Shown here: one piece after another, positions 44,510 to 59,963 of the stretch
Layout of the letters: every line of letters begins with the position of its first letter
Position numbering within the stretch: the first letter of the stretch is position 1
Assembly (NCBI RefSeq): GCF_000192745.1
Contig: NC_015259.1
Span: 3,363,001 to 3,427,000, forward strand
Direction: 5' to 3'
DNA length: 64,000 nucleotides
DNA from: Polymorphum gilvum SL003B-26A1
GTDB lineage: Bacteria > Pseudomonadota > Alphaproteobacteria > Rhizobiales > Stappiaceae
Translations under genes and position numbers: made by a program
Notes under the pieces: generated by a model
Database searches by the model: none
Told to the model about the DNA's origin: nothing
Seen by the model: the letters and a program-made list of their open reading frames with translations, nothing else

Positions 44510-46162
44510 ATGCCGGAGCACAATTCTATGCGTCGCAGGACCGGCGGCGAGGCCCTTGTCGACGCCCTGGCGGCGCACGGCATCGATACCGTGTTCGGCA
44601 TTCCGGGCGCGCAGATCTACGGCCTGTTCGACGCCTTCGCCACGGCGACGCCGCCGCTGAAGGTGATCGCCCCGCGACACGAGCAGACCTGCGGCTACAT
44701 GGCGTTCGGCGCCGCCCTAGCAACAGGCAAGCCGGCCGTCTTTTCCGTCGTTCCGGGACCGGGCATCCTCAACGCCGGCGCGGCGATGCTGACCGCCTTC
44801 GGCTGCAATGCTCCGGTGCTGTGCCTGACCGGCCAGGTGCCGACCGGCTTCCTCGGCCAGGGCCGCGGTCACCTGCATGAAATGCCCGACCAGCTCGCCA
44901 CCCTGCGCACCTTCGTCAAGCATGCCGAGCGCGTCGACCATCCGGCCCAGGCCGGCACTGCCGTCGCGCGCGCCTTCCAGATCATGACCGGCGGACGCAA
45001 GGGACCAGCCGCACTGGAAATGCCCTGGGACGTGTTCACCCAGGCCGCCGTCACCCTGCCGCCCTCGCCGCTCGCCCCCCTCGATCCGCCGCCGGTCGAT
45101 GACCGCGCGATCGAGGACGCGGCCCGCCTGTGCGCATCGGCCCGCGCGCCGATGATCTTCGTCGGCTCGGGCGCGATCGGCACCGAGGCCGAGGTGCTGC
45201 GCCTTGCGGAGCTGCTCGACGCTCCCGTCGTGGCATTCCGCAGCGGCCGTGGCATCGTCGACGACGACCACGACCTCGGCCTCACCATGGCCGCAGCCTA
45301 TCGCCTGTGGCCGGACACCGACCTGATGATCGGCATCGGCACGCGTCTCGAACTGCCGACCTGGCGCTGGCCGTACCGTCCGGCAGGACAGAAGTCGATC
45401 CGCATCGACATCGATCCGGCCGAAATGCGCCGCTTCCGCCCCGATGTCGCCGTAGTTGCCGACGCGGCGGCCGGTGCGGCCGCGCTCGCCGACGCGCTCG
45501 GTCGCAACGCCGGCCCCGACGCCTCCCGCCGGCAGGCCATCGCCGCAGCCAAGGCCGCCGCTGCCGAGGCGATCCAGGCGGTGCAGCCGCAGATGTCCTA
45601 TCTGTCGGTGCTGCGCGAGATCCTGCCCAGGGACGGCATTGTTACTGACGAACTGTCACAGGTCGGCTTCGCTTCCTGGTACGGCCTGCCGATCCATCGG
45701 CCGCGCACCTTCCTCTCGTCCGGATACCAGGGCACGCTCGGCTCCGGCTTTCCGACCGCGCTCGGCGCCAAGATCGCCTGCCCGGATCGCGCCGTGGTCG
45801 CCATCTGCGGCGACGGCGGCTTCATGTTCGCTGCCCAGGAACTGGCGACCGCCGCCCAGTTCGGCATCGGCGTCGTCACCCTGGTGTTCAACAACCGCTC
45901 CTACGGCAACGTCCGGCGCGACCAGGTGCAGGGTTTCGAGGGTCGGATCGTCGGCGCCGATCTGGACAATCCGGACTTCGTCCGCTTTGCCCAGTCTTTC
46001 GGCGTCGACGGCGTGCGCGTCGACACGCCGGACTCCTTCCGCCGGGAACTGAAGCGGACGATCGCGGCCGACCGGCCGGCGCTGATCGAGGTCGCGGTCG
46101 AACGCGGCTCGGAGACCAGCCCCTGGGCCTTCATCCATCCGCCCAGGCCGGACGGCCTCTGA
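44510..46162 (+). CDS. Thiamine-diphosphate-dependent enzyme (acetolactate synthase/benzoylformate decarboxylase family)
   Basis: 550-aa ThDP enzyme. The activating Glu58 is in APRHEQTCGYMAFGAA; the cofactor motif GDGGFMFAAQELATAAQFG begins near 434 and ends with FNNRSYG. A central domain with the Rossmann-like GSGAIGTEAEVL binds FAD in synthases or is vestigial in decarboxylases. ATG at 44510 is chosen for GGGAGGAG upstream; an ATG at 44468 adds 14 residues. Whether it decarboxylates an aryl-glyoxylate or condenses 2-oxoacids cannot be settled by eye; the neighbouring FMN 2-hydroxyacid dehydrogenase favours decarboxylation of its 2-oxoacid product (inference). Confidence 0.9.
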   Translation: MPEHNSMRRRTGGEALVDALAAHGIDTVFGIPGAQIYGLFDAFATATPPLKVIAPRHEQTCGYMAFGAALATGKPAVFSVVPGPGILNAGAAMLTAFGCNAPVLCLTGQVPTGFLGQGRGHLHEMPDQLATLRTFVKHAERVDHPAQAGTAVARAFQIMTGGRKGPAALEMPWDVFTQAAVTLPPSPLAPLDPPPVDDRAIEDAARLCASARAPMIFVGSGAIGTEAEVLRLAELLDAPVVAFRSGRGIVDDDHDLGLTMAAAYRLWPDTDLMIGIGTRLELPTWRWPYRPAGQKSIRIDIDPAEMRRFRPDVAVVADAAAGAAALADALGRNAGPDASRRQAIAAAKAAAAEAIQAVQPQMSYLSVLREILPRDGIVTDELSQVGFASWYGLPIHRPRTFLSSGYQGTLGSGFPTALGAKIACPDRAVVAICGDGGFMFAAQELATAAQFGIGVVTLVFNNRSYGNVRRDQVQGFEGRIVGADLDNPDFVRFAQSFGVDGVRVDTPDSFRRELKRTIAADRPALIEVAVERGSETSPWAFIHPPRPDGL

Positions 46163-46203: not shown

Positions 46204-46962
46204 ATGCCGACAGTCGTGGTCACGGGCGCCGGCTCGGGCATCGGTCAGGCAACGGCACTGCGTTTCGCGCAGGCCGGCTGGAACGTCGTCGCGGGACTGT
46301 ATGACGCGTCTCAGGAGACCGGGACGAAAGCGGTCCACGGCTTTGCCGAAGCCTCCGGCGGCTCCTGCCATACCGTCATTGCCGACATCTCGAAGGAGGT
46401 CGATGCGGAACGGCTGATCGAGGAGGCCGCCAGACAGTTCGCCTCGGTCGACGCGCTGGTGAATGCCGCCGGCATCACGCGCATGGTACCCCTCGCCGAC
46501 CTCGCCACCCTGACGCCGGAGATGTTCCACGCCATCTATGCGGTCAACACGGTCGGCGCCTTCCTGACTGCCCGCGCGGCCGCTCCGCACCTGCGCAAGG
46601 CGCAGGGCGCCATCGTCAACGTCTCGTCGCTCGCCGCGCGCACGGGCGGGGGCTCATCCATCGCCTATGCGGCCTCCAAGGCGGCATTGGAGACCGTGAC
46701 CCTGTCCCTCGCCCGCGTACTGGCGCCGCAGGTGCGGGTCAATGCCGTGGCGCCCGCCCTCGTTGCCGACGGCTTCGTCCAGCGCCTCGATCCCCGGGCT
46801 TTCGAGGAGCGTAAGAGGGGACAGGTCGAGCGCGCTCCGCTCGCCCGCATCGGCCGGCCGGACGACGTCGCCGAGACCATCTTCTGGCTGGCCACCGGCG
46901 CGCCGCTCGTCACCGGCGAGATCGTCACGCTCGACTGCGGCCTTCATCTGAACGCCGACTGA
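46204..46962 (+). CDS. Short-chain dehydrogenase/reductase
   Basis: 252-aa classical SDR: VTGAGSGIGQATALRFAQAG at 5-24 (TGxxxGxG), VNAAGITRM near 88-96, catalytic Ser in NVSSLAAR, and Tyr-Lys in SIAYAASKAALE at about 155-166. The ending IFWLATGAPLVTGEIVTLDC is standard. A Gly-Leu-Tyr-Asp after strand 2 suggests NAD preference. It lies 41 bases after the ThDP enzyme with a good site (gggagagaaggg). Confidence 0.93.
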   Translation: MPTVVVTGAGSGIGQATALRFAQAGWNVVAGLYDASQETGTKAVHGFAEASGGSCHTVIADISKEVDAERLIEEAARQFASVDALVNAAGITRMVPLADLATLTPEMFHAIYAVNTVGAFLTARAAAPHLRKAQGAIVNVSSLAARTGGGSSIAYAASKAALETVTLSLARVLAPQVRVNAVAPALVADGFVQRLDPRAFEERKRGQVERAPLARIGRPDDVAETIFWLATGAPLVTGEIVTLDCGLHLNAD

Positions 46963-47004: not shown

Positions 47005-48762
47005 ATGACCGAACGCTTCACGCCGCGCCGCACGCCGCCCGAGGGTATGCCGCCGCGCCTGCGCTCCAGGACCATCTACACCGGCACCATCCGCGCCACG
47101 ACGCGCAGCTTCCTCTATGGCATCGGCTTCGACGACGAGGAGATCGAACGCCCGCATGTCGCCGTCGTGCACACCGGCGGCGAGATGAGCCCGTGCAACC
47201 TCAACCTGGCCGTCCAGGCGCAACACGCCAAGACCGGCGTCTATGCCGGCGGAGGTGCGCCGCACGAATGCCCGGTCGTGTCGGTTTCCGACGGCCTGTC
47301 CATGGCCCATTCCGGCATGCGCTTCTCGCTGATCTCGCGCGAACTCATCGCCGACAGCGTCGAGGCGACGGTGCGCGGCCACCAGTTCGACGGCATCTTC
47401 GGCATCGGCGGCTGCGACAAGAACCTCCCGGGCCTGATGATGGGGGCGGTGCGCTGCAACGTGCCGGCCGTGGTCATGCACGGCGGTGCCACCATTCCCG
47501 GTCGGCTCGACGGCAAGGACAGGAACGTCGTCGACACCTACGAGGCCATCGGCGGCGTGCTTGCCGGCACGGTCGAGCGCGCCGAACTCGACGCGCTCAG
47601 CCACGCCTGTCTGCCGACCGCCGGCTCGTGCCCCGGCCAGTTCACCGCCAATACCATGGGCATGGTCGCCGAGGCGCTCGGCCTCGCCCCGATCGGCAGC
47701 GCCATGATGCCCGCCGTCTACTCGCAGCGGGCGGCCGTCGCGCGCCGCGCCGGCAAGGCTCTGGTCGCGGCGATCGAACGCGACTGGCCGCGCGCGCGCG
47801 ACATCGTCACCCTGACAGCGCTCGAAAACGCCTGCGCCCTGGTCGCCGCCACCGGCGGCTCGACCAACGCCGCCCTGCATCTGCCGGCGATCGCCAACGA
47901 GGCCGGCATCGCCTTCGGCCTGCCGGAGATCGAGACGATCTTCGCTCGCACGCCTCTGATCGCCAACCTGCAGCCCGGCGGCCGCTATCTGGCACGTGAC
48001 CTCGACGCCATCGGCGGCACGGGCATCATCATCCGCGAACTGATCGCCGGCGGATTCATAGACGGCGATGCGCTCACCTACACCGGCCGCAGCCTGGCCG
48101 AGGAGACAGCCGGCGCACCTGCCCCCGATGGCGAGATCGTCAGACCCTGCAGCGACCCGATCTCGCCGACCGGCGGCCTGATCGTGCTGCGCGGCAACCT
48201 GTGTCCCGACGGCGCCGTGCTCAAGGTCGCCGGCCTCAAGACCCTGGTGCATCGGGGCAAGGCGCGCGTCTTCGACGGCGAGGAGGCCTGCCAGACCGCG
48301 GTGCAGAACCGCCGCTACGAGGAAGGCGACGTGATCGTCATCCGCAACGAGGGACCGAAGGGCGGTCCCGGCATGCGCGAGATGCTCGGCATCACCGCCC
48401 TGCTCTACGGCCAGGGCATGGGCGAGAAGGTCGCCTTGCTGACCGACGGCCGCTTCTCCGGCGCGACCCGGGGCCTGTGCATCGGCTATGCCGGACCGGA
48501 GGCCGCCGCCGGCGGCCCGCTCGCCCTTCTGAAGGACGGCGACATCGTCGCCATCGACGCGCGTCCCGGCCACGCGACCATACAGGTCGAACTGACCGAC
48601 GAGGAACTTCGCGCCCGCGCCGCCGCCTCCCCGTCAACCTGGAGCGCGCCGAAGGGCGGCCTGCTCGAGAAATACGCCGCTTGCGTGGGTCCGGCTTGGC
48701 GCGGCGCCGTGACTCATTCCGGCAACGTCGACTGGCCGCGCGACGAAGAGCCGACCCTCTGA
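47005..48762 (+). CDS. IlvD/Edd-family iron-sulfur dehydratase
   Basis: 585-aa dehydratase of the dihydroxy-acid or sugar-acid type. Three cluster ligands are seen: Cys in MSPCNLNL near 63, Cys in GIGGCDKNLPG near 136 and Cys in TAGSCPGQFTANTM near 207, the pattern of [2Fe-2S] members; SDGLSMAH also matches. RFSGATRGLCIGY near 490 is the C-terminal active-site strand. In this operon (SDR, then this enzyme, then FMN dehydrogenase) a catabolic 2,3-dihydroxyacid role is more likely than branched-chain amino-acid synthesis. Confidence 0.92.
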   Translation: MTERFTPRRTPPEGMPPRLRSRTIYTGTIRATTRSFLYGIGFDDEEIERPHVAVVHTGGEMSPCNLNLAVQAQHAKTGVYAGGGAPHECPVVSVSDGLSMAHSGMRFSLISRELIADSVEATVRGHQFDGIFGIGGCDKNLPGLMMGAVRCNVPAVVMHGGATIPGRLDGKDRNVVDTYEAIGGVLAGTVERAELDALSHACLPTAGSCPGQFTANTMGMVAEALGLAPIGSAMMPAVYSQRAAVARRAGKALVAAIERDWPRARDIVTLTALENACALVAATGGSTNAALHLPAIANEAGIAFGLPEIETIFARTPLIANLQPGGRYLARDLDAIGGTGIIIRELIAGGFIDGDALTYTGRSLAEETAGAPAPDGEIVRPCSDPISPTGGLIVLRGNLCPDGAVLKVAGLKTLVHRGKARVFDGEEACQTAVQNRRYEEGDVIVIRNEGPKGGPGMREMLGITALLYGQGMGEKVALLTDGRFSGATRGLCIGYAGPEAAAGGPLALLKDGDIVAIDARPGHATIQVELTDEELRARAAASPSTWSAPKGGLLEKYAACVGPAWRGAVTHSGNVDWPRDEEPTL

Positions 48763-48870: not shown

Positions 48871-50025
48871 ATGCTGTTGTCCCTCGAGCACATGCGCCGT
48901 CGCGCCAGGCGCCGCATTCCCCGCGTCGCCTTCGACTATCTCGACGGCGGCGCCGGAGACGAGGCCGGCGTGCGCGAGAACCGCGCCGCCTTCGACCGGC
49001 TTCGTTTCCTGCCGCGCGCGCTGCGCAACGTCGATGCCGTCGATCCCTCGGCGACCCTGTTCGGCCGCCGCTGGGCGCTGCCCTTCGGCATCGCGCCGAT
49101 CGGGCTCGGCAATCTCGTCTGGCCGGGCGCAGACGCCATGGTGTGTCGCGCCGCGCGCGACGCCGGCCTTCCCTACACGCTGTCGACCGCCGGCACGACC
49201 GCGATCGAGACCATCCGCGGACTGGCTCCGGAGACGTCCTGGTTCCAGCTCTACGTCGCGCGCGAGCAGACCATCGCCGAGGACCTGATCGCGCGCGCGG
49301 AAGGCTGCGAGGTGCTGTTCGTGACCGTCGACGTGCCGGCGCCGGCGCGCCGCCCGCGCGACATCGCCAACGGTCTCAGCCTGCCGCTGAAGCCGTCGCT
49401 GCGCATGGCCGCCGACATCGCCTGCCATCCCCGCTGGACCGCCGCCATGCTGCGGGCGGGCCAGCCGCGCTTCGCCAACATCGAGCGCTATGCGCCGGGA
49501 GCGACCAACGCCCAGGCGCTCGCCGCCTTCATGGCCAGCCAGAGTTCCGGGCGTGTCGACTGGGCCTATCTCGACTGGCTGCGCGGGCGCTGGCTTGGCC
49601 GACTGGTCGTCAAGGGCCTGCTGGCGCCGGAGGATGTCTGCCGCGCCCGCGACGCCGGCGCCGACGCGGTCGTCGTCTCCAACCACGGCGGCCGGCAACT
49701 GGAGGCCAGCGTCGCCTCACTGACCATGCTGCCGGAGATCCGCCGTGCCGTCGGTCCCGACTTCCCGCTGCTGCTCGACAGCGGCGTGCGCTCGGGCGCC
49801 GACGTGGTCAAGGCGCTCGTCGCCGGCGCCGATTTCGTGCTGATCGGCCGTGCCGCCATGTATGCGGTCGCCGCCGCCGGCGAGGCCGGGGTACGCGACC
49901 TCGTCCGCCTGTTCGAGGCCGAGATCCGCAGCGTCATGGCCCAGCTCGGCGTCACGCGCACCCAGGACCTCGACGCCGGCCTCGCCTATTCGGACTTTGG
50001 CGCCGTCTCCAGCAGCCGTCCGTAG
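48871..50025 (+). CDS. FMN-dependent 2-hydroxyacid dehydrogenase (mandelate/lactate dehydrogenase family)
   Basis: 384-aa flavoprotein oxidising a 2-hydroxyacid to a 2-oxoacid. Seen are FDYLDGGAGDE near 20-30 (FMN loop), IAPIGLGNLVWPGAD, TLSTAGTTAIE, WFQLYV near 124 (substrate Tyr), the Lys in GRLVVKGLLAPED near 248 and the catalytic His-Arg in VVSNHGGRQLE near 271. The mandelate dehydrogenase branch is as good a match as lactate dehydrogenase. The last 40 bases overlap the 3' end of the arylmalonate decarboxylase-like gene on the other strand. Confidence 0.93.
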   Translation: MLLSLEHMRRRARRRIPRVAFDYLDGGAGDEAGVRENRAAFDRLRFLPRALRNVDAVDPSATLFGRRWALPFGIAPIGLGNLVWPGADAMVCRAARDAGLPYTLSTAGTTAIETIRGLAPETSWFQLYVAREQTIAEDLIARAEGCEVLFVTVDVPAPARRPRDIANGLSLPLKPSLRMAADIACHPRWTAAMLRAGQPRFANIERYAPGATNAQALAAFMASQSSGRVDWAYLDWLRGRWLGRLVVKGLLAPEDVCRARDAGADAVVVSNHGGRQLEASVASLTMLPEIRRAVGPDFPLLLDSGVRSGADVVKALVAGADFVLIGRAAMYAVAAAGEAGVRDLVRLFEAEIRSVMAQLGVTRTQDLDAGLAYSDFGAVSSSRP

Positions 50026-50729
50026 CCGGGCGCTTCGCCACCGTGACCGATCAGCCGCGCGGCGGCCCAGGCCCCGGCGACCGCGCTGGAGATCACCGGC
50101 ACGCCGAGCCTGTCCTCAAGCGGCAGGGTCACCGACAGCGTCTGCAGCCCTCCGCAGGAGACCAGCAGGGCGTCGGCCTCCGGCGCCGCGACAAAGGCCC
50201 GCGTGCCAAGACCGATCAGGTCGTCGTCGCCGATCGCCAGCACGTCGCCGACGGCGCTGATCTGCAGGCTGTCGAGGCCGAGTACCTCGAAGCCGTGATG
50301 CAGCAGAAACGCCGTCAGCCGGTCGTTGACCTCGTCGACATAGGCGGTCGCCACCGCAAGACGCCGCGCCCCGACGGCGCGCAGCGCCTCGACGACCGCG
50401 CAGCTCATCGTGGTGACGGGAAGACCGGTCGCCGACGCCATGCGCTCGACCAGCGCGTCGTTGAACGCCGCGCCGCGGTAGAAGCTCAGCGATGTGCCCA
50501 TCAGCGCGACTGCCGCCGCGCCTTCTGCGGCCAGCGCGCGGGCGGCCGCCTCGACCCTGTCGATGACGTCGTCGTAGCCGTCGCGGGTCATCGTCGCCAG
50601 CGCCAGGCCCCTGGCGGCAAAGCGCAGCGCATCGCCGTAGAGCGCCGGCGGCTCGGGCGGCACCAGGCCTGTCGCAGGCGGCACGATCAGGCCGACCAGC
50701 GGCCGGCCGTCGCCCGGCCGGGAGGTCAT
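49986..50729 (-). CDS. Arylmalonate decarboxylase homologue (Asp/Glu racemase superfamily)
   Basis: 247-aa cofactor-free enzyme closely resembling Bordetella arylmalonate decarboxylase (240 aa), which decarboxylates 2-aryl-malonates enantioselectively. Shared are the start VGLIVPPATGLVPPEPPALY, GTSLSFYRGAAFN at 78-90 (dioxyanion hole), ATAYVDEVN near 127-135 and the catalytic Cys192 in LLVSCGGLQTL. Position 78, Cys in racemases and maleate isomerases of this fold, is Gly here as in the decarboxylase, so a single-cysteine decarboxylase is predicted. Its ATG overlaps the stop of the TRAP large-permease gene (ATGA), linking it to an imported acid. Confidence 0.88.
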   Translation of the reverse strand: MTSRPGDGRPLVGLIVPPATGLVPPEPPALYGDALRFAARGLALATMTRDGYDDVIDRVEAAARALAAEGAAAVALMGTSLSFYRGAAFNDALVERMASATGLPVTTMSCAVVEALRAVGARRLAVATAYVDEVNDRLTAFLLHHGFEVLGLDSLQISAVGDVLAIGDDDLIGLGTRAFVAAPEADALLVSCGGLQTLSVTLPLEDRLGVPVISSAVAGAWAAARLIGHGGEAPGYGRLLETAPKSE

Positions 50730-52021
50730 TGTGCCATCTGCTGCGGCAGGTAGAGCACCAGCCAGGGCAGCAGCACGATCAGCGCGAGGCGAATGAAGTC
50801 GGCGGCGATGAACGGCAGGATACCCTTGTAGATCTCCGTCGTCTTGACGTTGTGCAGCACCGTGCGGATGACAAAGATGTTCATGCCGATCGGCGGCGTG
50901 ATCAGGCTGATCTCGACCACCACGACGACGAGGATGCCGAACCAGATCGGGTCGAAGCCGAGGCCGACGACCAGCGGGAAGAACACCGGCACTGTCAGCA
51001 GGATCATCGCCAGCGAATCGAACACCGCCCCGAGCACCAGGTAAAACACGATCAGGAGCAGGATCACGCCCATCGGCGACAGACCGAAGCCGTTGATGAA
51101 TTGTACCACCGCGCTCGGCACGCCGGCGACGTTGACGAAGTTGGAGAAGATCAGCGCGCCTACCAGCACGGCCATCAGCATGGCCGTGGTGCGCGCCGTC
51201 TCCAGCAGCAGCTTGAGCAGCGAGCGGACCGTCAGCGTGCGACGCAGCAGGGCGATGAAAAACGCGCCGGTAGCGCCGACGCCGGCAGCCTCCGTCGCCG
51301 TGAAGACGCCGAGATAGATGCCGCCGATGACCACGATGAACAGCACCAGCGTCGTCCAGACCGTGCCGAGCGCCGCGAAGCGCTCGCGCCAGGCCAGGCG
51401 CGGCCCGCGCGGGCCGGCCTCCGGCCGCAGCGTGACCACCGCGATGACCGCCAGGATGTACAGCAGGATGCCCATCACGCCCGGCACGATGCCGGCGATG
51501 AACAGCTGGCCGATGCTGGTCTCGGTGATGCTGCCGTAGATCACCATGATCACGGAGGGCGGGATCAGGATGCCGAGCGTGCCGCCGGCGGCGACCGAGC
51601 CGGCCGACAGGGAATCGGAATAGCCGTAGCGCTTCATCGAGGGCAGCGCGATCGCCGACATGGTCGCGGCGGTGGCCAGGCTTGAGCCGCAGACGGCCGC
51701 AAAGCCGCCGCAGGCGATGATGGTCGCGATGGCAAGGCCGCCGCGCCGGTGACCCACGAAGGCGTTGGAGGCGGCATAAAGCTCGCGCGACAGGCCGGCG
51801 TGGTTGACCAGGTTGCCCATCAGCAGGAACAGCGGCAGCACGGAGAGCGAATAGCTCGACAGCGTGTCCCAGGTGATCTGCGCGACCATCGCGCCGGCAG
51901 GCTTAAAGGCGATCAGGTAGCCGAAGCCGAAATAGCCGACGAAGCCGAGCGCCAGCGCCAGCGGAAAGCCGAAGAACAGCAGCAGGAAGAGTACGACGAA
52001 GCCGATCAGCGCGATGGTCAT
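50726..52021 (-). CDS. TRAP transporter large permease (DctM type), system B
   Basis: 431-aa membrane protein with about 12 segments, start MTIALIGFVVLFLLLFFGFP. It has GSSLATAATMSAIALPSM, LIPPSVIMVIYGSITETSIG and the C-terminal SLITPPIGMNIFVIRTV, all DctM landmarks. It overlaps both neighbours by 4 bases, so permease and decarboxylase are made together. Confidence 0.95.
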   Translation of the reverse strand: MTIALIGFVVLFLLLFFGFPLALALGFVGYFGFGYLIAFKPAGAMVAQITWDTLSSYSLSVLPLFLLMGNLVNHAGLSRELYAASNAFVGHRRGGLAIATIIACGGFAAVCGSSLATAATMSAIALPSMKRYGYSDSLSAGSVAAGGTLGILIPPSVIMVIYGSITETSIGQLFIAGIVPGVMGILLYILAVIAVVTLRPEAGPRGPRLAWRERFAALGTVWTTLVLFIVVIGGIYLGVFTATEAAGVGATGAFFIALLRRTLTVRSLLKLLLETARTTAMLMAVLVGALIFSNFVNVAGVPSAVVQFINGFGLSPMGVILLLIVFYLVLGAVFDSLAMILLTVPVFFPLVVGLGFDPIWFGILVVVVVEISLITPPIGMNIFVIRTVLHNVKTTEIYKGILPFIAADFIRLALIVLLPWLVLYLPQQMAQ

Positions 52022-52557
52022 GATCCGCTGCCCTTTCGAAACAGTCCGATGAGCGCCTTGACGGCAAGGATTGCGGCGGCGGCGGCGGCAAGGCCGAGCC
52101 CGGCAGCACCGAGCATGACGACCGGCGCGATGGGGAACTTGAGGGTCGCGGTGGTGTCGCCGAAGCGGGCGAAGCGCGCCGCCATCTCCCACATGCGCAG
52201 GGCGAGGAACCCGGTGCCGGCGACCATGGCGGTCGCCACGACCAGATCGCGCAGGTGCGCCATGCGGCCGCCGAAGGCGTCCTCGAACAGGCCGACCGTC
52301 ACGTGCTCGCGGCGCAGCGTCACCGAGGGCAGAGCGACGAAGACGATCGCCGCCATGGCGAGCTGGGTCATCTCGTAGGCCCAGCCGAGCGGCGCGTTGA
52401 AGAAGTAGCGGCCGACCACGTCGACGGCCGTGGAAAACATCAGGGCCAGTAGAAGCAGGCTTCCGGCGGCGCCCAGGACGGTCTCGACGATGTCGACCGG
52501 CAGCGACAGGAGCCTCGACGGGCGGTCAGAAGCGGGATCGGTTTCGGTATCAGCCAT
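52018..52557 (-). CDS. TRAP transporter small permease (DctQ type), system B
   Basis: 179-aa membrane protein with four segments; the DctQ core is VVGRYFFNAPLGWAYEMTQL near 48-67 and ALPSVTLRREHVTVGLF. ATGA overlap with the large permease gene. Confidence 0.92.
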   Translation of the reverse strand: MADTETDPASDRPSRLLSLPVDIVETVLGAAGSLLLLALMFSTAVDVVGRYFFNAPLGWAYEMTQLAMAAIVFVALPSVTLRREHVTVGLFEDAFGGRMAHLRDLVVATAMVAGTGFLALRMWEMAARFARFGDTTATLKFPIAPVVMLGAAGLGLAAAAAAILAVKALIGLFRKGSGS

Positions 52558-52581
52558 GGCAGGCCCTTTGGAGACGGCGGA

Positions 52582-52612
52582 GCGCCCCCCGGACCGGAAG
52601 TCCGGAGGGCGC
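52582..52612 (-). promoter_or_regulatory. Hairpin between TRAP binding-protein and small-permease genes, system B
   Basis: GCGCCCCCCGGAC and GTCCGGAGGGCGC pair at 12 of 13 positions around a 5-base loop. As in TRAP system A, it follows the binding-protein gene and lacks a T-run, fitting a message-stabilising or attenuating structure. Confidence 0.6.
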
Positions 52613-52621
52613 GGGAAGAGA

Positions 52622-53650
52622 TCACTCGGGCTTGTAGGCCTTGGCCTCGGCGATCAGCATGTCAAGCGCTGCCTTGCCGTCGACGCCCTTGGCATTGGCC
52701 TTCTCGATCCAGGCCTGGGTGATCGGCGCGGTGCGCTCGCGGATCGCGGTGGTGAACGCCTCGTCGGCAACGATGCGCTTGACGCCGTTCTTTTCCATCG
52801 TGGCGATGGCCGCTTCGTCCGTCTTGTCGAAGGTGCGGCCGCCGAGCCGGGCGAGATATTCACCGGAATGGTCCATCACGACCTTCTGGTCCTCCGGCGA
52901 CAGGGCGTCGAAGGCGTCCTGGTTCATCACCGCGAACCAGACCGACGAATATAGCCCGTCCGGCACCGTCGTCTCGTAGTTGATCACGCCGCCGAGGTTG
53001 AAGCTGTCGTAGGCTTCCGAGGGCAGCAGCGTGCCGTCGACGATGCCGGCGGACAGGATCTCGTAGACCTCGTTGGCCGGAGCCGCGACATTGACGCCGC
53101 CCAGCGCCGGGTTGATGTCCTGGATCAGGCCGCCGCCGACACGGAACTTCTTGCCGTTCATGTCGTCGATGCTGTCGATCGGCTCCTTGGACGTCATGAT
53201 GCGGCCCGCGCCGTGGGCGAAGATCGCCAGCAGCTTGACGCCCTCGAACTCGTTGACCTGCGCGAAATGCTTCTCGAAGGTGCGCCACAGCGCGACCGAG
53301 CGCGCCTCGCCGCTCTGGCCGACGAACGGCAGTTCCGCCGCGCCGACCAGGTCGAACCGCCCCGGCGTGTAGCCGGCGACGCCGAAAGTGATGTCGGCGA
53401 TGCCGGCGACGGCGAGGTCGTACTGGCGCGGCGGAGCGCCGAGCGAGGCATCGGTCATCTGGATGTCGACGCGACCGCCGGACGCCTCGCGGATGGCATC
53501 CGCCCACGGCTTCATGGTGCCGACAACCTGGCTGTGCTGGGGCGGCAGCCAGTTGTTCATGCGAAGCACCGTCTGCGCTTCGGCAACCGACTGGTATGCG
53601 AGGGCGGCCAAGGCGACGGATGCCAGGCCAATACTCTTAAACACTTTCAT
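52622..53650 (-). CDS. TRAP transporter substrate-binding protein (DctP type), system B
   Basis: 342-aa periplasmic protein with signal peptide 1-25 (ends AYQSVAEA). The mature part begins TVLRMNNWLPPQHSQVVGTM, and the DctP specificity helix with the expected Arg is MNGKKFRVGGGLIQDINPAL near 159-178. It is first gene of the operon SBP-Q-M-decarboxylase, so its ligand is probably the decarboxylase substrate or its precursor. Confidence 0.93.
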   Translation of the reverse strand: MKVFKSIGLASVALAALAYQSVAEAQTVLRMNNWLPPQHSQVVGTMKPWADAIREASGGRVDIQMTDASLGAPPRQYDLAVAGIADITFGVAGYTPGRFDLVGAAELPFVGQSGEARSVALWRTFEKHFAQVNEFEGVKLLAIFAHGAGRIMTSKEPIDSIDDMNGKKFRVGGGLIQDINPALGGVNVAAPANEVYEILSAGIVDGTLLPSEAYDSFNLGGVINYETTVPDGLYSSVWFAVMNQDAFDALSPEDQKVVMDHSGEYLARLGGRTFDKTDEAAIATMEKNGVKRIVADEAFTTAIRERTAPITQAWIEKANAKGVDGKAALDMLIAEAKAYKPE

Positions 53651-53790: not shown

Positions 53791-54195
53791 TCAGCCGGCG
53801 AGCGTCGCCTTCAGGCTGGCAAGGCCGGACCTGAAGACGAAGGACATGCCCTGGGCCACGGCATCGAGCGCGTCCTCCGGCGCGTCGAAATCGCAACTCC
53901 ACACCACACGGCTGCCAGCGCCGTTCGCCTCGACGCGTAGCAGGCCCTCGTGGCGAAGGAGCGGCATCGGGCTGTCCAGGATCGTGTAGCGGCAGGCCAT
54001 GGCATCGACGCAGTCCAGCTGCTCTTCGACGACCTCGGCACCGTCCGGCACGACGAGGCGCCGGACCTTGCCGCCGCTTTCCGCCCGGCTCTCGACGACG
54101 CCCGGATGCCAGGCAGCCATCGCATGGAAATCGCCGATGACCTGCCAGACCACCTCCGGCGTCGCCGCAAGCTCGACTTCCTCGACTACTTTCAT
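53791..54195 (-). CDS. SRPBCC-family (START-like) protein
   Basis: 134-aa Bet v1-like protein: the start VVEEVELAATPEVVWQVIGD, then FHAMAAWHPGVV, fits polyketide-cyclase/dehydrase members that bind hydrophobic or aromatic ligands in a cavity. No catalytic set can be named. It lies 25 bases before the phenylacetaldehyde-type ALDH gene's stop on the same strand and probably ends that operon. Confidence 0.82.
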   Translation of the reverse strand: MKVVEEVELAATPEVVWQVIGDFHAMAAWHPGVVESRAESGGKVRRLVVPDGAEVVEEQLDCVDAMACRYTILDSPMPLLRHEGLLRVEANGAGSRVVWSCDFDAPEDALDAVAQGMSFVFRSGLASLKATLAG

Positions 54196-54220: not shown

Positions 54221-55714
54221 CTAGTAGGCGAAACAGACGGACTTGGTTTCGGTGTAGAGGTCGATCGCCGCCCGGCCCATCTCCCTGCCCATGCCGGAAT
54301 GCTTGAAGCCACCGAAGGGCATGTTGGCGTCGACCGCGTTGTGGGTGTTCACCCACACTGTGCCGGCCTTGATCGCGCCGACCGCCCGCATGATCTTGGA
54401 GTAGTCGTTCGACCACACGCTGGCGCCGAGCCCGTAGACGGTGTCGTTGGCCTTGGCCAGCGCCTCGTCGAGGTCGTCGAACGGCATCGCCACCATGACC
54501 GGCCCGAAGATCTCCTCGCGCACCACCGACATGGCGTGGTTGGTGTCGACGAGAATGGTCGGACGCACGAAGAAACCGTCGCCGTCGGAGTCCGGGCCGC
54601 CGGTCGCGGCCCTAGCACCGTCGGCAAGACCCTGGGCGATGTAGCCCTTGACCCGCTCCTGCTGCCGGCGCGAGACGAGCGGGTTGATCTGATTGGCCGG
54701 ATCCATGCCCGGCCCGACCTTCATCTGGGCCGCCGCGCCGGCCAGGTCGGAGACGACGTTGTCGAAAATCTTCTTGTGGACGTAAAGCCGCGATGACGCC
54801 GTGCAGACCTGGCCGTTGTTGAAGAAGATGCCGGCGGCCGCGCCCTGGGCCGCCATGGCGGGGTCGAAGTCGTCGAGCACGATCATCGGCGACTTGCCGC
54901 CCAGTTCGAGCGAGAAGCGGGTCATGTTCTTGAGCGCCGCCTCGCCGATCTTGCGGCCGACCTCGGTGGAGCCGGTGAAGGCGACCTTATCGACGCCGGG
55001 ATGGGCGACGAGGCTTGCACCCGCGGTATGGCCATAGCCCGTGATCACGTTGACGACCCCGGCGGGCACGCCCGCTTCCAGGCACAACTCGGCCAGCCGC
55101 AGGGCGGTCAGCGGGGTCTCCTCGGCCGGCTTCAGCACAACCGTGCAGCCGCAGGCGAGCGCCGGTGCGATCTTCCAGACCGCCATGACGAGCGGGAAGT
55201 TCCAGGGCACGATCGCGCCGACGACACCGACCGGTTCGCGCAGCGTCATGGCGCGATACTGGACGCCCGGGGGAAAGCCGATCGAGACGTCCAGGGTCGA
55301 GCCCTCGATCTTGGTCGCCCATCCGGCCATGTAGCGGGTGAACTCCGACGAATGGCCCGCCTCGAGCATGCGCGAGATCATGATCGACTTGCCCTGGTTC
55401 ATCGTCTCGATCTGGGCAAGTTCCTCGCCGTTGGCCTCGATCAGATCAGCCAGGCGCACGAGCACCTTCTCGCGGTCGGCGGGACGCATCTTCGACCATT
55501 CGCCGCCGAGCGCGGCGCGCGCGGCCTTCACGGCGCGGTCGACCTCCTGCTCCGTCGCATCCGGCACCTTGGCGATCACCAGCCCGGTCGCCGGATCGAA
55601 CACGTCGATGGACGCGCCCTCACCGCGCTGGCTCTTGCCGTCGATGAAGTGGCCGTGCTCGCGGGCGAGGAAGCTGTGGGTAGCAGGATGCAGGTCAGAT
55701 GGCACGTTCAGCAT
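54221..55714 (-). CDS. Phenylacetaldehyde dehydrogenase-like aldehyde dehydrogenase
   Basis: 497-aa NAD enzyme, complete: PWNFPLVMAVWKIAPALACG near 168-187, Lys in VVLKPAEETP, Glu in LELGGKSPM near 268 and the catalytic Cys in NGQVCTASSR near 303. Length and motifs fit phenylacetaldehyde/betaine-aldehyde-like enzymes (PadA/FeaB about 499 aa). GGGAGGAC before ATG decides the start. In this cluster an aryl aldehyde from a 2-oxoacid decarboxylase is a sensible substrate. Confidence 0.93.
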   Translation of the reverse strand: MLNVPSDLHPATHSFLAREHGHFIDGKSQRGEGASIDVFDPATGLVIAKVPDATEQEVDRAVKAARAALGGEWSKMRPADREKVLVRLADLIEANGEELAQIETMNQGKSIMISRMLEAGHSSEFTRYMAGWATKIEGSTLDVSIGFPPGVQYRAMTLREPVGVVGAIVPWNFPLVMAVWKIAPALACGCTVVLKPAEETPLTALRLAELCLEAGVPAGVVNVITGYGHTAGASLVAHPGVDKVAFTGSTEVGRKIGEAALKNMTRFSLELGGKSPMIVLDDFDPAMAAQGAAAGIFFNNGQVCTASSRLYVHKKIFDNVVSDLAGAAAQMKVGPGMDPANQINPLVSRRQQERVKGYIAQGLADGARAATGGPDSDGDGFFVRPTILVDTNHAMSVVREEIFGPVMVAMPFDDLDEALAKANDTVYGLGASVWSNDYSKIMRAVGAIKAGTVWVNTHNAVDANMPFGGFKHSGMGREMGRAAIDLYTETKSVCFAY

Positions 55715-55776: not shown

Positions 55777-56679
55777 TCAGCGCGAGGCGCGCGCCTTCCA
55801 GGCCTTGTAGGCGGCCGTGTTGTCGACGCCCTGTTCCAGGTCGTCGCGCGCCGTCAGCCACATCTTGCTCGTGGTACGCGCGAGCGGCATGTCGAGGCTC
55901 AGTCCCTCGGCAAGATCGGCCGCGATCTTGACGTCCTTGGCCAGCAGCGCGAGCGCGAAGCCGGAGGCGAAGGCGCCCTCGACGACATGCGGCTTCAGCG
56001 TCACGTCGGTGGCGAAGTTGCGCCCTGTCGAGGTGCGCATGATGTCGACCATGATTCCCTGGTCGAGGCCGAAGCGCTCGCCGACGATCAGCGCCTCGGA
56101 GGCCGCCGCGAAGCCCGCGGCGGCGACGTAGTTGTTGAGGGCCTTCATGGCATGGCCGGAGCCGAGCGGTCCGGTTTCGAAGATCTGCTTGCCCATGCCG
56201 GCCAGCACCGGCTTGGCCCGCTCGATGGCTGCCGGCTCGTCGCCGCCGACCATGATCGTCAAGGTTCCGTCATGGGCGCGCGCGACACCGCCCGAGACCG
56301 GGGCATCAATCAGATCGATCGACTTGCCCTTCAGCATGCCACCGAGTTCGCGCGTGCCGATCGGATCGGCCGAGCTCATGTCGATCACCAGCGCGCCCGG
56401 CTTCAGATGCGCAGCAAGACCGTCGTCGGCCGCGCCCAGCATGACCTTGCGCACGACGTGGCCGTCGGGAAGCATGGTGACAACGATGCTGCAGCGGGCA
56501 CCGAGGTCGGCAAGGCCGGAGGCCGCGGAAACGCCGTTGTCTGCTGCGAATTTTACCGCCTTCGCCGTGTTGACGTCATAGACGACGACCGGAAAACCGG
56601 CCTTGGACAGGTTGAGCGCCATCGGCGAACCCATGTTGCCGATGCCGATGAAGCCGATCGTTTCCATCGTCCCGCTCAT
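55777..56679 (-). CDS. 3-Hydroxyisobutyrate dehydrogenase-family reductase
   Basis: 300-aa beta-hydroxyacid dehydrogenase. NAD(P) site IGFIGIGNMGSPMALNLSKA at 8-27, substrate motif DAPVSGGVARAHDGTL at 125-140 and catalytic Lys179 in SGHAMKALNNY. The family includes 3-hydroxyisobutyrate dehydrogenase and tartronate semialdehyde reductase. ATG at 56679 overlaps the CMD stop (ATGA), which decides the start over an ATG four codons later. Confidence 0.92.
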   Translation of the reverse strand: MSGTMETIGFIGIGNMGSPMALNLSKAGFPVVVYDVNTAKAVKFAADNGVSAASGLADLGARCSIVVTMLPDGHVVRKVMLGAADDGLAAHLKPGALVIDMSSADPIGTRELGGMLKGKSIDLIDAPVSGGVARAHDGTLTIMVGGDEPAAIERAKPVLAGMGKQIFETGPLGSGHAMKALNNYVAAAGFAAASEALIVGERFGLDQGIMVDIMRTSTGRNFATDVTLKPHVVEGAFASGFALALLAKDVKIAADLAEGLSLDMPLARTTSKMWLTARDDLEQGVDNTAAYKAWKARASR

Positions 56680-57056
56680 GCCTCCAGCCCCAGATCCTTG
56701 AGCACCTCCGAGGCGGAGCGGAAGCCGTCCACGGCCATCGGGATGCCGCAATAGATGATCGAGTGCATCAGGAGTTCACGGATCTCCTCCTTGGAGACGC
56801 CGTTGGCGATGGCGCCGCGGGTGTGGATCTTCACCTCGTGGCTGCGGCCCATGGCAACCAGCATGGCGAGCGTCAGGAGGCTGCGCGTCTTGCGGTCGAA
56901 CACCGGGCGCTGCCAGGCCTCGCCGAAGCACTGCTTGGTCACCCATTCCTGCATCGGACGCGTGAAGTCGGTTGCCGCCTCGAGCTGCTTCTCGGCGCCT
57001 TCGGGGCCGAACATGGCGCGCCGCAGTTCGAGACCTCGGTCAAATTCCTCACTCAT
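56676..57056 (-). CDS. Carboxymuconolactone decarboxylase-family protein
   Basis: 126-aa CMD protein: RPVFDRKTRSLLTLAMLVAM near 50-69 and RGAIANGVSKEEIRELLMHS near 80-99. The size and the Arg/Glu-His pattern (EVKIHTRGAI) match PcaC-type 4-carboxymuconolactone decarboxylases rather than the Cys-x2-Cys AhpD peroxidases; no CxxC is present. No other beta-ketoadipate genes are here, so a different substrate is possible. It starts the leftward operon under the palindrome at 57101. Confidence 0.88.
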   Translation of the reverse strand: MSEEFDRGLELRRAMFGPEGAEKQLEAATDFTRPMQEWVTKQCFGEAWQRPVFDRKTRSLLTLAMLVAMGRSHEVKIHTRGAIANGVSKEEIRELLMHSIIYCGIPMAVDGFRSASEVLKDLGLEA

Positions 57057-57211: not shown

Positions 57212-57526
57212 TCAGCCGGGGACGCGCACGGTCAGTCCGTCGAGCTCGGCCGTGACGGTGATCTGGCATCCGAGCCGGCTGCCGGGATGCCGCTCGCCGA
57301 CCGAGAATTCGAGCATTTCGTCCTCGCTATCGGATTTCGGCGGCAGGCGGGCGAGGCCGGCCTCGTCGACGAGCACGTGGCAGGTGGCGCACATGCAGGA
57401 TCCCCCGCATTCCCCGACGATGCCCTCGACGCCGTTCTGCACCGCCGCCTGCATCAGCGAGGTGCCAACCGGCACTTCCAGGTCACGGCGGCTGCCGTCA
57501 GGTTCCATAAAGATGATCTTCGGCAT
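57212..57526 (-). CDS. [2Fe-2S] ferredoxin, putidaredoxin/adrenodoxin type
   Basis: 104-aa electron carrier. Cys40, Cys46, Cys49 and Cys87 (ECGGSCMCATC and RLGCQ) give C-x5-C-x2-C-x37-C; an extra Cys44 lies within the loop, as in putidaredoxin relatives. It is followed upstream by the FAD reductase gene 42 bases away. It probably feeds the P450 at 43154. Confidence 0.94.
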   Translation of the reverse strand: MPKIIFMEPDGSRRDLEVPVGTSLMQAAVQNGVEGIVGECGGSCMCATCHVLVDEAGLARLPPKSDSEDEMLEFSVGERHPGSRLGCQITVTAELDGLTVRVPG

Positions 57527-57568: not shown

Positions 57569-58807
57569 TCAAGCCGCGTCCAGCCAATCCTTGAGACTCG
57601 CAAGGCCGTTGCGCGCTTGGTCCGGCCGCGGTCCCGCGCCCTGCGCGATGAGCCTGCGCGCGGCCATGTGGTCGCCGGCCCGTCCGACCGACTCCACGCA
57701 GGCGAGCCGGCCTTCGCGGTAGCGCAGCACCGAGAAGGTCAGCCTGTCGGGATCGCCAATGACGATCCGCTCGTCGTCGTCCTGGCCCAGCCCGGCGATC
57801 TGCAGCTTGACCTTGCCCTGGTCGCTCCAGAACCACGGCAGCGCCGCATAGGGCCCGTGGGGCTTGCCCGCAAGGCGGGCGGCGACCAGGCGCGCCTGGT
57901 CGTTGGCGTTCTGGACCGACTCCAGGCGGATCCGGGGACCGGGTGCGAACGGATTGGGTGCGGCCGCGCAGTCGCCGACCGCCGAGATCGCCGGATCGCC
58001 AGTCCGCAGCAAGGCGTCGACGACGATGCCGTTGTCGGCTTCAAGGCCGGCTGCGGTCGCCAACTCAGAGTTCGGCACGACTCCGACACCGATTAGCACA
58101 AGGTCGGCGGGTATCCGGAGGGTTTCCGGCAGGTCCACATCGGTCACCCGCCCGGCGGTACCATTCAGCCGCGAGACCCCGGCGCCGAAGACGAATTCGA
58201 TTCCCAAGGAGCGGTGATAGGCCTCGATCAATCCCGCGCATTCCGCGGAAACGGCGCGGGACAACGCCCGCGGCGCGATGTCGATGACGGTTACTTTCGC
58301 CCCCGCCAGAGCCGCCGTTGCGGCGAATTCGAGACCAATGAAGCCGGCGCCGACGACGACCACGCGGCCGGCGCCGCCCAGTTGCGAGCGGATCGCCCGC
58401 GCCTCCGCAACGGTGCGCAGGTGGCAGACGCCGTCGAGATCTGTCCCCGGAACATCGAGACTCCGGTTCCGCGCGCCGGTGGCCAGCACCAGATGGCCGT
58501 ACGTGAGCCGCCGGCCGGATGCCAACCGCACAGCCCTTGCGGAGCGGTCGATTTCGACGACCCTGTCCGACGCCACCAGATCGATCCGGTTCTGCTCGAA
58601 GAACGCCGGCGGCCGGAAACACAGGCTGCCTTCCTCCACACCGTTGGCCAGATATCCCTTGGACAGTGGCGGTCGGTTGTAGGGCAGCCCTGGCTCGTCG
58701 CCGATCAGGACGATCTCGCCGGCATATCCAGACTGCCTGAGGCACGCCGCCGTCTGAAAGCCCGCATGCCCCGCCCCGGCGATCACGACACGATCTTCGA
58801 CTGCCAT
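57569..58807 (-). CDS. NAD(P)H-dependent ferredoxin reductase (putidaredoxin reductase type)
   Basis: 412-aa FAD enzyme: FAD site VVIAGAGHAGFQTAACLRQS at 7-26, NAD site RVVVVGAGFIGLEFAATAAL near 147-166 and the closing FAD motif ISAVGDCAAAPNPF near 274. The C-terminal thirds match class I P450/dioxygenase reductases. With the ferredoxin it forms a complete electron chain. Confidence 0.94.
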   Translation of the reverse strand: MAVEDRVVIAGAGHAGFQTAACLRQSGYAGEIVLIGDEPGLPYNRPPLSKGYLANGVEEGSLCFRPPAFFEQNRIDLVASDRVVEIDRSARAVRLASGRRLTYGHLVLATGARNRSLDVPGTDLDGVCHLRTVAEARAIRSQLGGAGRVVVVGAGFIGLEFAATAALAGAKVTVIDIAPRALSRAVSAECAGLIEAYHRSLGIEFVFGAGVSRLNGTAGRVTDVDLPETLRIPADLVLIGVGVVPNSELATAAGLEADNGIVVDALLRTGDPAISAVGDCAAAPNPFAPGPRIRLESVQNANDQARLVAARLAGKPHGPYAALPWFWSDQGKVKLQIAGLGQDDDERIVIGDPDRLTFSVLRYREGRLACVESVGRAGDHMAARRLIAQGAGPRPDQARNGLASLKDWLDAA

Positions 58808-59006
58808 TCACTTCACCCGCGCCCTTTAAATATCCATTTTTGTCAATTACTTGCACAGTTTCGGCGACACCCGCCACCGTCCTCGGAACGGCCAAGCCAT
58901 GCCGCCCCGCCCCCAAACCCAGCCGGACCGGATGCTTGCATGAGGTATAAGTATCGGCATAATGGATTTATTCTCATAAAAAATTTGGTTTTATGGAGCT
59001 TTGTCG
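58808..59006. promoter_or_regulatory. A+T-rich divergent promoter, ferredoxin reductase / LysR
   Basis: Two A+T-rich patches are seen: 58826-58852 (tttaaatatccatttttg) near the reductase gene and 58938-58994 (taagtatcggcataatgg, then tttattctcataaaaaattt) near the LysR gene. They are the likely promoter cores. No exact T-N11-A repeat was found by eye. Confidence 0.45.
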
Positions 59007-59963
59007 ATGCCTGCCCCACGCTTCTCCCTTCGACAGCTCCACTATTTCGTGACGGTCGCCGAACTCGGTTCGATCCGGGATGCCTCGAGCCTGCTGAACG
59101 TTTCCCAGACGGCCCTGTCTCAGGCCCTGAGCGAGCTGGAGCGGGAGATCGGGACGACGCTGCTGCATCGCCGGCGCGCGATCGGGGCAAACCTTACCTC
59201 GGCCGGAACGATGCTGCTCGGCCGAGCTCGGGCGGTTCTCGATGCCGCCGGCGACTTCGAGGCAGCGGCTCAGAACTGGGAGCACGAGCTTGCAGGCCGG
59301 CTTGGCGTGAGCTGCTATTCGACGCTCTCGCCGTTCCTCGCGGCGCGGCTTCTGGGGCGCTTTCGCGAGGAACATCCGATGGTTCGCATCGACTTCCGGG
59401 ACAGTTCAGCAGAAAGAATGGCCGCCGATCTCCGACAGGGCCGATGCGAACTCGGCCTGACCTACGAGATCGGCCTGGATGACGACATCTGCCGAGAGCG
59501 ACTCTATTGGGTCCGCCCTCACCTGATCCTGCCGGCCGTCCACCCGCTCGCCAGCCGCACCGAGATCGCACTTGAAGACGTCGTCGACGAACCGCTGATC
59601 CTGTACGACGTGCCGCCTGCCGCAGCCAACACGCTCGGCATGTTCGCCCGGCTCGGCCTGACGCCACGGATCTCCTACCGGACCGAGAATTTCGAGCTCG
59701 TCCGATCCCTCGTCGGTGGCGGATTCGGATATTCCCTGCTTCTCCAGCAACCCTCTGCGGACGTCGCTCATGACGGCAGTTCAGTCGTCCGGCGACCGAT
59801 CTCCAGCGACACCGGCGCCTTCGCCATCGTCATCGCATGGTCAGACACCGTGCGCCTGAGCAAGAAGGCCGAGGTCTTCAAGGCCTTCTGCAAATCGGTT
59901 CTTGCGGGCGGCCACCGACCGGAGGTTAAGGAAAACTCTGCATCCGGTTACGAAACCCGTTAA
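59007..59963 (+). CDS. LysR-type transcriptional regulator
   Basis: 318 aa, start MPAPRFSLRQLHYFVTVAEL chosen for GGAG upstream (a TTG at 59001 is a poorer choice). HTH: GSIRDASSLLNVSQTALSQA, then LSELEREIGTTLLHRRRA at about 18-60. Effector domain about 90-300 with DLRQGRCELGLTYEI. It is divergent from the ferredoxin reductase gene and may regulate it. It belongs to the CynR/OxyR-like branch; the effector is unknown. Confidence 0.92.
   Translation: MPAPRFSLRQLHYFVTVAELGSIRDASSLLNVSQTALSQALSELEREIGTTLLHRRRAIGANLTSAGTMLLGRARAVLDAAGDFEAAAQNWEHELAGRLGVSCYSTLSPFLAARLLGRFREEHPMVRIDFRDSSAERMAADLRQGRCELGLTYEIGLDDDICRERLYWVRPHLILPAVHPLASRTEIALEDVVDEPLILYDVPPAAANTLGMFARLGLTPRISYRTENFELVRSLVGGGFGYSLLLQQPSADVAHDGSSVVRRPISSDTGAFAIVIAWSDTVRLSKKAEVFKAFCKSVLAGGHRPEVKENSASGYETR

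Follow-up and report, generated by a model that had tools for sequence, protein, structure and literature searches.

What does an arylmalonate decarboxylase (AMDase) decarboxylate in the bacterium that encodes it? The enzyme is widely employed in biocatalysis to obtain optically pure profens. The question is raised by amdP (SL003B_3169), a gene of 744 bp encoding 247 aa at positions 49986..50729 on the minus strand of a 64,000-nucleotide stretch of Polymorphum gilvum SL003B-26A1 (contig NC_015259.1, positions 3,363,001 to 3,427,000), referred to below as the window. P. gilvum is a bacterium from oil soil, and the genome of SL003B-26A1T consists of a 4,649,365-bp chromosome and a 69,598-bp plasmid, with 77 genes related to tripartite ATP-independent periplasmic (TRAP) transport (PMC3281065). 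amdP was found to close a minus-strand directon in which the genes of a TRAP importer also lie, an arrangement from which a preliminary description had taken an imported malonate-type acid to be the true substrate. The reading favoured here, which we consider rather probable, is that an imported aromatic acid is degraded by way of its side chain, and that AMDase strips CO2 from an aryl-malonate-type intermediate of this route.

The amdP product (PF17645, NF052327, PDB 3dg9) filled the Pfam Amdase model PF17645 with 348.7 bits (cut-off 25.9) and reached 360.4 bits against the NCBIfam model arylmal_decarb NF052327, whose equivalog cut-off is 225. It was 55% identical to the structurally solved AMDase of Bordetella bronchiseptica KU1201 (PDB 3dg9, 2vlb, 3ip8), and every catalytic or pocket position was either unchanged or conservatively substituted. 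The alignment to the Bordetella enzyme recovered the landmarks named in the preliminary description, namely the dioxyanion loop GTSLSFYRGAAFN, Gly78 and Cys192, the latter two corresponding to Bordetella position 74 and to the catalytic Cys188. The dioxyanion hole T75/S76/Y126/G189 was found as T79/S80/Y130/G193, the motif LMGTSLSF was exact, and ILLSCGGL was conservatively changed to LLVSCGGL. The hydrophobic pocket L40/V43/Y48/V156/M159 became L44/M47/Y52/V160/V163, identical or similar and inside the family range, with Met47 and Val163 in place of Bordetella V43 and M159. In this way, all AMDase positions listed by Maimanakos et al. (PMC4996985) were the same or conservatively substituted in the window protein, and no variation was observed at Gly78, Thr79, Ser80, Tyr130, Cys192 and Gly193 among the 82 AMDases compared. 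Chance falls far short of explaining such agreement. The protein holds two cysteines, 110 and 192; since Cys110 lies away from the racemase position, the earlier wording of a "single catalytic Cys192" was right in meaning but not in number. Maleate isomerase and Asp/Glu racemase were rejected as identities, because they require two active-site Cys and the first of these positions is Gly78 in the window protein; PDB sequence matches gave 57-60 bits for maleate isomerase versus 230 for AMDase.

The window gene is almost certainly the published amdP, as both share the same genome and the same 744-bp length, and no difference between them was found. Maimanakos et al. (2016; PMC4996985) had the gene synthesised and the protein expressed and purified, and demonstrated that AmdP decarboxylated phenylmalonate without cofactors and was R-selective, yielding R-flurbiprofen and R-naproxen. 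Its AMDase activity had thus been demonstrated already, and an enzyme acting only as isomerase or racemase is excluded by these assays. The same study described amd genes adjoined by genes for tripartite tricarboxylate (TTT), TRAP and ATP-binding cassette (ABC) transporters and by MR/MLE genes, and defined amd clusters, two of them with TRAP genes, for which substrate uptake was suggested (PMC4996985). The link between AMDase and TRAP was restated in a 2018 review. Since both the AmdP assays and the AMDase-TRAP clusters were published, the enzyme and its coupling to TRAP, as first noted, are already known. In the published TRAP-I cluster, amd lies beside TRAP genes as it does in P. gilvum, and AmdP would belong to TRAP-I, since our AMDase tree placed it among alpha, beta and gamma members, the composition reported for that cluster; the dehydratase beside AMDase is, however, IlvD-type in P. 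gilvum versus MR/MLE in TRAP-I.

The TRAP genes lie directly upstream of amdP on the same strand. The large permease DctM (50726..52021; PF06808 341 bits and TIGR00786 339 bits, over cut-off) ends at 50726, and 4 bp (ATGA) are common to its TGA and the amdP ATG; the small permease DctQ (52018..52557; PF04290) likewise overlaps DctM by 4 bp, and the solute-binding protein (SBP) DctP, of the TarP/4p56 aromatic-acid group, is encoded at 52622..53650 (PF03480, PDB matches, AlphaFold2 model). A check of the open reading frames reproduced the coordinates given earlier for the AMDase and TRAP genes and confirmed the reported overlap of the amdP start with the permease stop. The order SBP-Q-M-decarboxylase also held, but the operon reaches well beyond these four genes: ten co-directional minus-strand genes fill the stretch 58807-49986, ferredoxin reductase first and AMDase last.

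The SBP offers the most direct view of what is imported. Its best PDB sequence match was 4p56 from B. bronchiseptica, whose ligand we take to be mandelate, followed by TarP-type entries; identity was 41% to 4p56 and 26-31% to TarP-type aromatic-acid SBPs, over a shared SBP fold. The AlphaFold2 model (pLDDT 87.9) also matched 4p56 best, at Z 43.1. Structural ranks 1-12 and 15 were occupied by 4p56 or TarP-like entries (Z 34-43), and the first SBP beyond this group stood at Z 30.8. SBPs with a described specificity for aromatic acids, or solved with an aromatic ligand, lay at Z 34-39, the ligands being coumarate, cinnamate, caffeate, ferulate and 4-hydroxyphenylacetate; 5im2, 4n6d and 4nap also fell within the upper structural group. 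The window SBP is therefore nearest, in both sequence and fold, to SBPs solved with aromatic acids, and the best guess for its ligand is an aromatic carboxylate. This placement, which is new, supports an aromatic ligand, but it does not favour a malonate over a monoacid. The coupling of AMDase to TRAP uptake is thus real, as the preliminary description had it and as published in 2016, whereas the imported compound need not itself be a malonate. The SBP of another TRAP/IlvD-type AMDase operon (L059), ~36% identical to that of the window, falls in the same 4p56/TarP group, whereas the SBP of L036, an operon of the other TRAP type, is nearest to 4mco.

In the reading favoured here, an aromatic carboxylic acid would be imported through this TRAP importer of the aromatic-acid class, and its side chain would be processed by the neighbouring oxidoreductases. 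AMDase would then decarboxylate an aryl-malonate-type compound, either imported as such or made from the imported acid. AmdP itself is a genuine AMDase that works without a cofactor: one carboxylate of the alpha-aryl malonate is destabilised by the dioxyanion loop together with the hydrophobic pocket, and after the departure of CO2 Cys192 donates a proton to the enediolate, so that the R acid results, as others showed for phenylmalonate and profen malonates. A possible outlet would be the Paa pathway, PaaK and PaaA having scored over cut-off elsewhere in the genome, at ~2.27 Mb; the likeness of the directon's aldehyde dehydrogenase to phenylacetaldehyde dehydrogenase StyD also speaks for the scheme. 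The enzyme activity, through the published assays, and the gene organisation are shown; we infer that the SBP binds an aromatic ligand, that the neighbouring enzymes serve a single pathway and that CO2 is lost at the aryl-malonate stage, as well as which malonate is involved.

Several observations weigh against it. The ThDP (thiamine diphosphate)-dependent, acetolactate-synthase-like enzyme of the plus strand (44510..46162, start codon inferred; PF02775, PF02776, PF00205) has acetolactate synthases as its nearest solved relatives, and a pair of directon genes, encoding a carboxymuconolactone-decarboxylase (CMD)-family protein (56676..57056, minus strand; PF02627; TIGR02425 123 bits, below cut-off) and a beta-hydroxyacid dehydrogenase of the HIBDH/tartronate-semialdehyde reductase family (55777..56679, minus strand; PF03446, PF14833), is also present in genomes without a nearby AMDase. 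The neighbouring genes consequently need not share one pathway, and the CMD-HIBDH pair was discarded as an AMDase signature. Moreover, some AMDase loci carry a tricarboxylate-type receptor or no transporter, so that uptake by TRAP is no inherent companion of AMDase. Finally, the IlvD and MR/MLE families, which adjoin AMDase at many loci, are familiar chiefly for their action on non-aromatic 2,3-dihydroxy acids.

To see how general these associations are, 84,980 species genomes were scanned for AMDase; 116 candidates were confirmed and the best 80 kept with flanks of up to 10 kb either way, and together with the window 81 loci were compared. Many survey loci came from metagenome-assembled genomes and Variovorax was heavily represented, so the counts are not independent events. 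A TRAP large permease lay within 9 kb of AMDase in 17 of the 81 loci, and the operons followed two or more designs. The first design, TRAP-A, comprises P-Q-M, IlvD, a HIBDH-type gene and AMDase, and is usually accompanied by a 2-oxopentenoate-hydratase-like gene in opposite orientation; the second, TRAP-B, comprises a GntR gene, P-Q-M, MR/MLE and AMDase. The hydratase-like gene of TRAP-A separates the TRAP permease from IlvD in L059 (6523-7398, minus strand), with equivalents in L035, L039, L045, L049, L055 and L064. The window has the TRAP-A parts (TRAP, IlvD and a HIBDH-family gene) in rearranged order, and its HIBDH is 31% identical to that of TRAP-A. The Achromobacter loci closest to the Bordetella AMDase in the tree have a TctC-type receptor, versus the TRAP operon of P. 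gilvum. In a well-supported AMDase clade of 11 loci (L046, L057, L090, L043, L063, L084, L053, L066, L074, L054, L058), neither MR/MLE, IlvD, TctC or TRAP nor any consistently common neighbour was found nearby.

The survey also revealed MR/MLE and IlvD as two apparently interchangeable dehydratase families found in the company of AMDase. An MR/MLE orthologue (53-100% identity) lay within 6 kb of AMDase in 45/81 loci and an IlvD dehydratase in 12/81, the window included, and the two never occurred together, barring an unrelated 29% MR/MLE match in L045. This mutual exclusion is a new observation, as is the separate clade formed by the linked IlvDs. Mapped onto the AMDase tree, the alternation of MR/MLE and IlvD requires three or more switches, although the deep forks of this tree are weakly supported. 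The window IlvD/DHAD-type dehydratase (47005..48762, plus strand; PF00920, PF24877) was nearer to dihydroxy-acid dehydratase (DHAD) than to sugar-acid dehydratases. Identity alone proves nothing here, because many alphaproteobacteria encode DHADs that reach 50-56% identity; the raw values of 52-58% were thus uninformative as to whether the neighbour is a housekeeping IlvD. That explanation was rejected on the tree, in which the window IlvD, 11 other AMDase-linked IlvDs and two further sequences (L115, L116) were set apart from 17 background IlvDs/DHADs, sampled from alphaproteobacteria, by a branch with SH-like approximate likelihood ratio test (SH-aLRT) support of 100. By this topology the AMDase-linked IlvDs are a distinct clade, closely but not exclusively tied to AMDase, since L115 and L116 fall inside it and AMDase was not found in the stretch fetched around each. 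The neighbours of these two IlvDs (in genomes G185 and G065, respectively) could reveal the dehydratase substrate.

The linked MR/MLE proteins matched galactonate, talarate and arabinonate dehydratase models best, all subfamily models remaining below cut-off. In a sequence alignment of 46 cluster members to 3ssz, the His-Asp pair of mandelate racemase was missing: Asn303 stood at the Asp270 position and Asn329/Gly330 at the His297 position, residues that at least 93% of these members share. The candidate identity of these proteins as true mandelate racemases was weakened by the absence of this dyad.

On the plus strand, genes for a P450, the ThDP enzyme, a short-chain dehydrogenase, the IlvD-type dehydratase and a flavin mononucleotide (FMN)-dependent 2-hydroxyacid dehydrogenase converge on AMDase. 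The last of these (48871..50025; PF01070 413 bits) had (S)-mandelate dehydrogenase 6bfg as its best PDB match (278 bits), and PF01070 matched no other protein of this genome over its full length. Its 3' end overlaps that of amdP, on the opposite strand, by 40 bp (49986-50025). FMN dehydrogenases also adjoin MR/MLE or MR/MLE-TctC at the AMDase loci L065 and L154 and at eight related Comamonadaceae/Burkholderiales loci. The recurrence of this gene, placed end to end with AMDase in the window, is likewise new, and together with its similarity to (S)-mandelate dehydrogenase it points to 2-hydroxyacids in the AMDase pathway. AMDase decarboxylates alpha-hydroxyphenylmalonate. A rather unlikely route could be built on these elements, in which AMDase acts on a 2-aryl-2-hydroxymalonate and the resulting aryl 2-hydroxyacid is oxidised by the FMN dehydrogenase to a 2-oxoacid, to be taken up by the ThDP enzyme and aldehyde dehydrogenase (ALDH). 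It draws on the mandelate-dehydrogenase likeness, uniqueness and position of the FMN gene and on its recurrence in the three other settings, as well as on 4p56, with mandelate as its presumed ligand, being the structure closest to the SBP, but that gene lies on the strand opposite amdP, AMDase is R-selective while the FMN family acts on S acids, the ThDP enzyme is nearest to acetolactate synthases and not to benzoylformate decarboxylase, and the MR/MLE of other loci is without the mandelate-racemase His-Asp pair.

The dehydratases themselves would suit a non-aromatic substrate, an alkenyl- or acyl-malonate derived from a hydroxylated acid handled by IlvD or MR/MLE, which we regard as unlikely. 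The alternation of two dehydratase families, the sugar-acid models matched by MR/MLE and the separate clade of linked IlvDs are consistent with it; against it, the SBPs from IlvD/TRAP-type operons group among proteins that bind aromatic acids, the linked MR/MLE has neither the canonical dyad nor a subfamily model above cut-off, and the IlvD is nearer to DHAD than to sugar-acid dehydratases.

A further route, to which we give slightly less credit still, would start from a tropate-like acid, a bacterial tropate pathway being known; a search of one literature collection for bacterial tropate genes gave no paper. HIBDH would convert a 3-hydroxy-2-arylpropanoate to an arylmalonate semialdehyde, ALDH would oxidise it to the arylmalonate, and AMDase would release an arylacetate to the Paa pathway, while the P450 (43100..44338, plus strand; PF00067), the 2Fe-2S ferredoxin (57212..57526, minus strand; PF00111) and the ferredoxin--NAD reductase (57569..58807, minus strand; PF07992, PF14759) could supply the hydroxyl. 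HIBDH, ALDH, TRAP and AMDase share one directon, and the same gene set lies beside AMDase, in another arrangement, in Rhizobiaceae L042 (CMD 61%, HIBDH 59%, DctP 60%, DctM 71% and ALDH 37% identity). The StyD-like ALDH (54221..55714, minus strand) was closest to the phenylacetaldehyde dehydrogenase model StyD (NF045735; 765.7 bits, next model 533), and PaaK and PaaA are present; yet its score is below the StyD cut-off of 850, the L042 ALDH is closer to other models, no subfamily model for the HIBDH-family protein passed its cut-off, and the CMD-HIBDH pair also occurs without AMDase. Sequence alone selects neither this route nor the one through an aryl 2-hydroxyacid.

That AMDase was merely placed horizontally behind an unrelated TRAP operon, with no common pathway, is very unlikely. 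In its favour, none of 36 further genomes sampled from the family yielded amdP, a transposase gene lies beside the cluster (60354-61877, plus strand; rve and Mu-transpos_C_2 domains) and TRAP-related genes are abundant (77 in the genome), but amdP and DctM overlap by 4 bp and TRAP genes recur at 17/81 AMDase loci in at least two designs. The transposase and the absence of AMDase from the sampled family genomes do suggest that the AMDase region was acquired.

A more novel reading, offered tentatively and with more doubt than conviction, sees AMDase in a conserved catabolic module with a TRAP or tricarboxylate-type transporter, either MR/MLE or the non-homologous IlvD of the dedicated clade but never both, and often an FMN 2-hydroxyacid dehydrogenase; in nature AMDase would then act on a hydroxylated aryl-malonate or an acid related to it. 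If so, the plain arylmalonates of the laboratory would not be the natural substrate, and the physiological role of AMDase would become testable. The search is narrowed by the aromatic-acid class of the importer, the dedicated IlvD clade where MR/MLE is absent and the lone mandelate-dehydrogenase-like gene.

In the 2016 survey, AMDases were confined to Alpha-, Beta- and Gammaproteobacteria (PMC4996985); AMDases at L031, L046 and L053 were observed here in metagenome-assembled genomes labelled Chloroflexi and Acidobacteriota, with possible mis-binning. The remaining genes around amdP encode an SRPBCC-fold protein (Polyketide_cyc2) within the directon (53791..54195, minus strand; PF10604), the short-chain dehydrogenase of the converging strand (46204..46962, plus strand; PF13561) and a LysR regulator divergent from the directon (59001..59963, plus strand; PF00126, PF03466).

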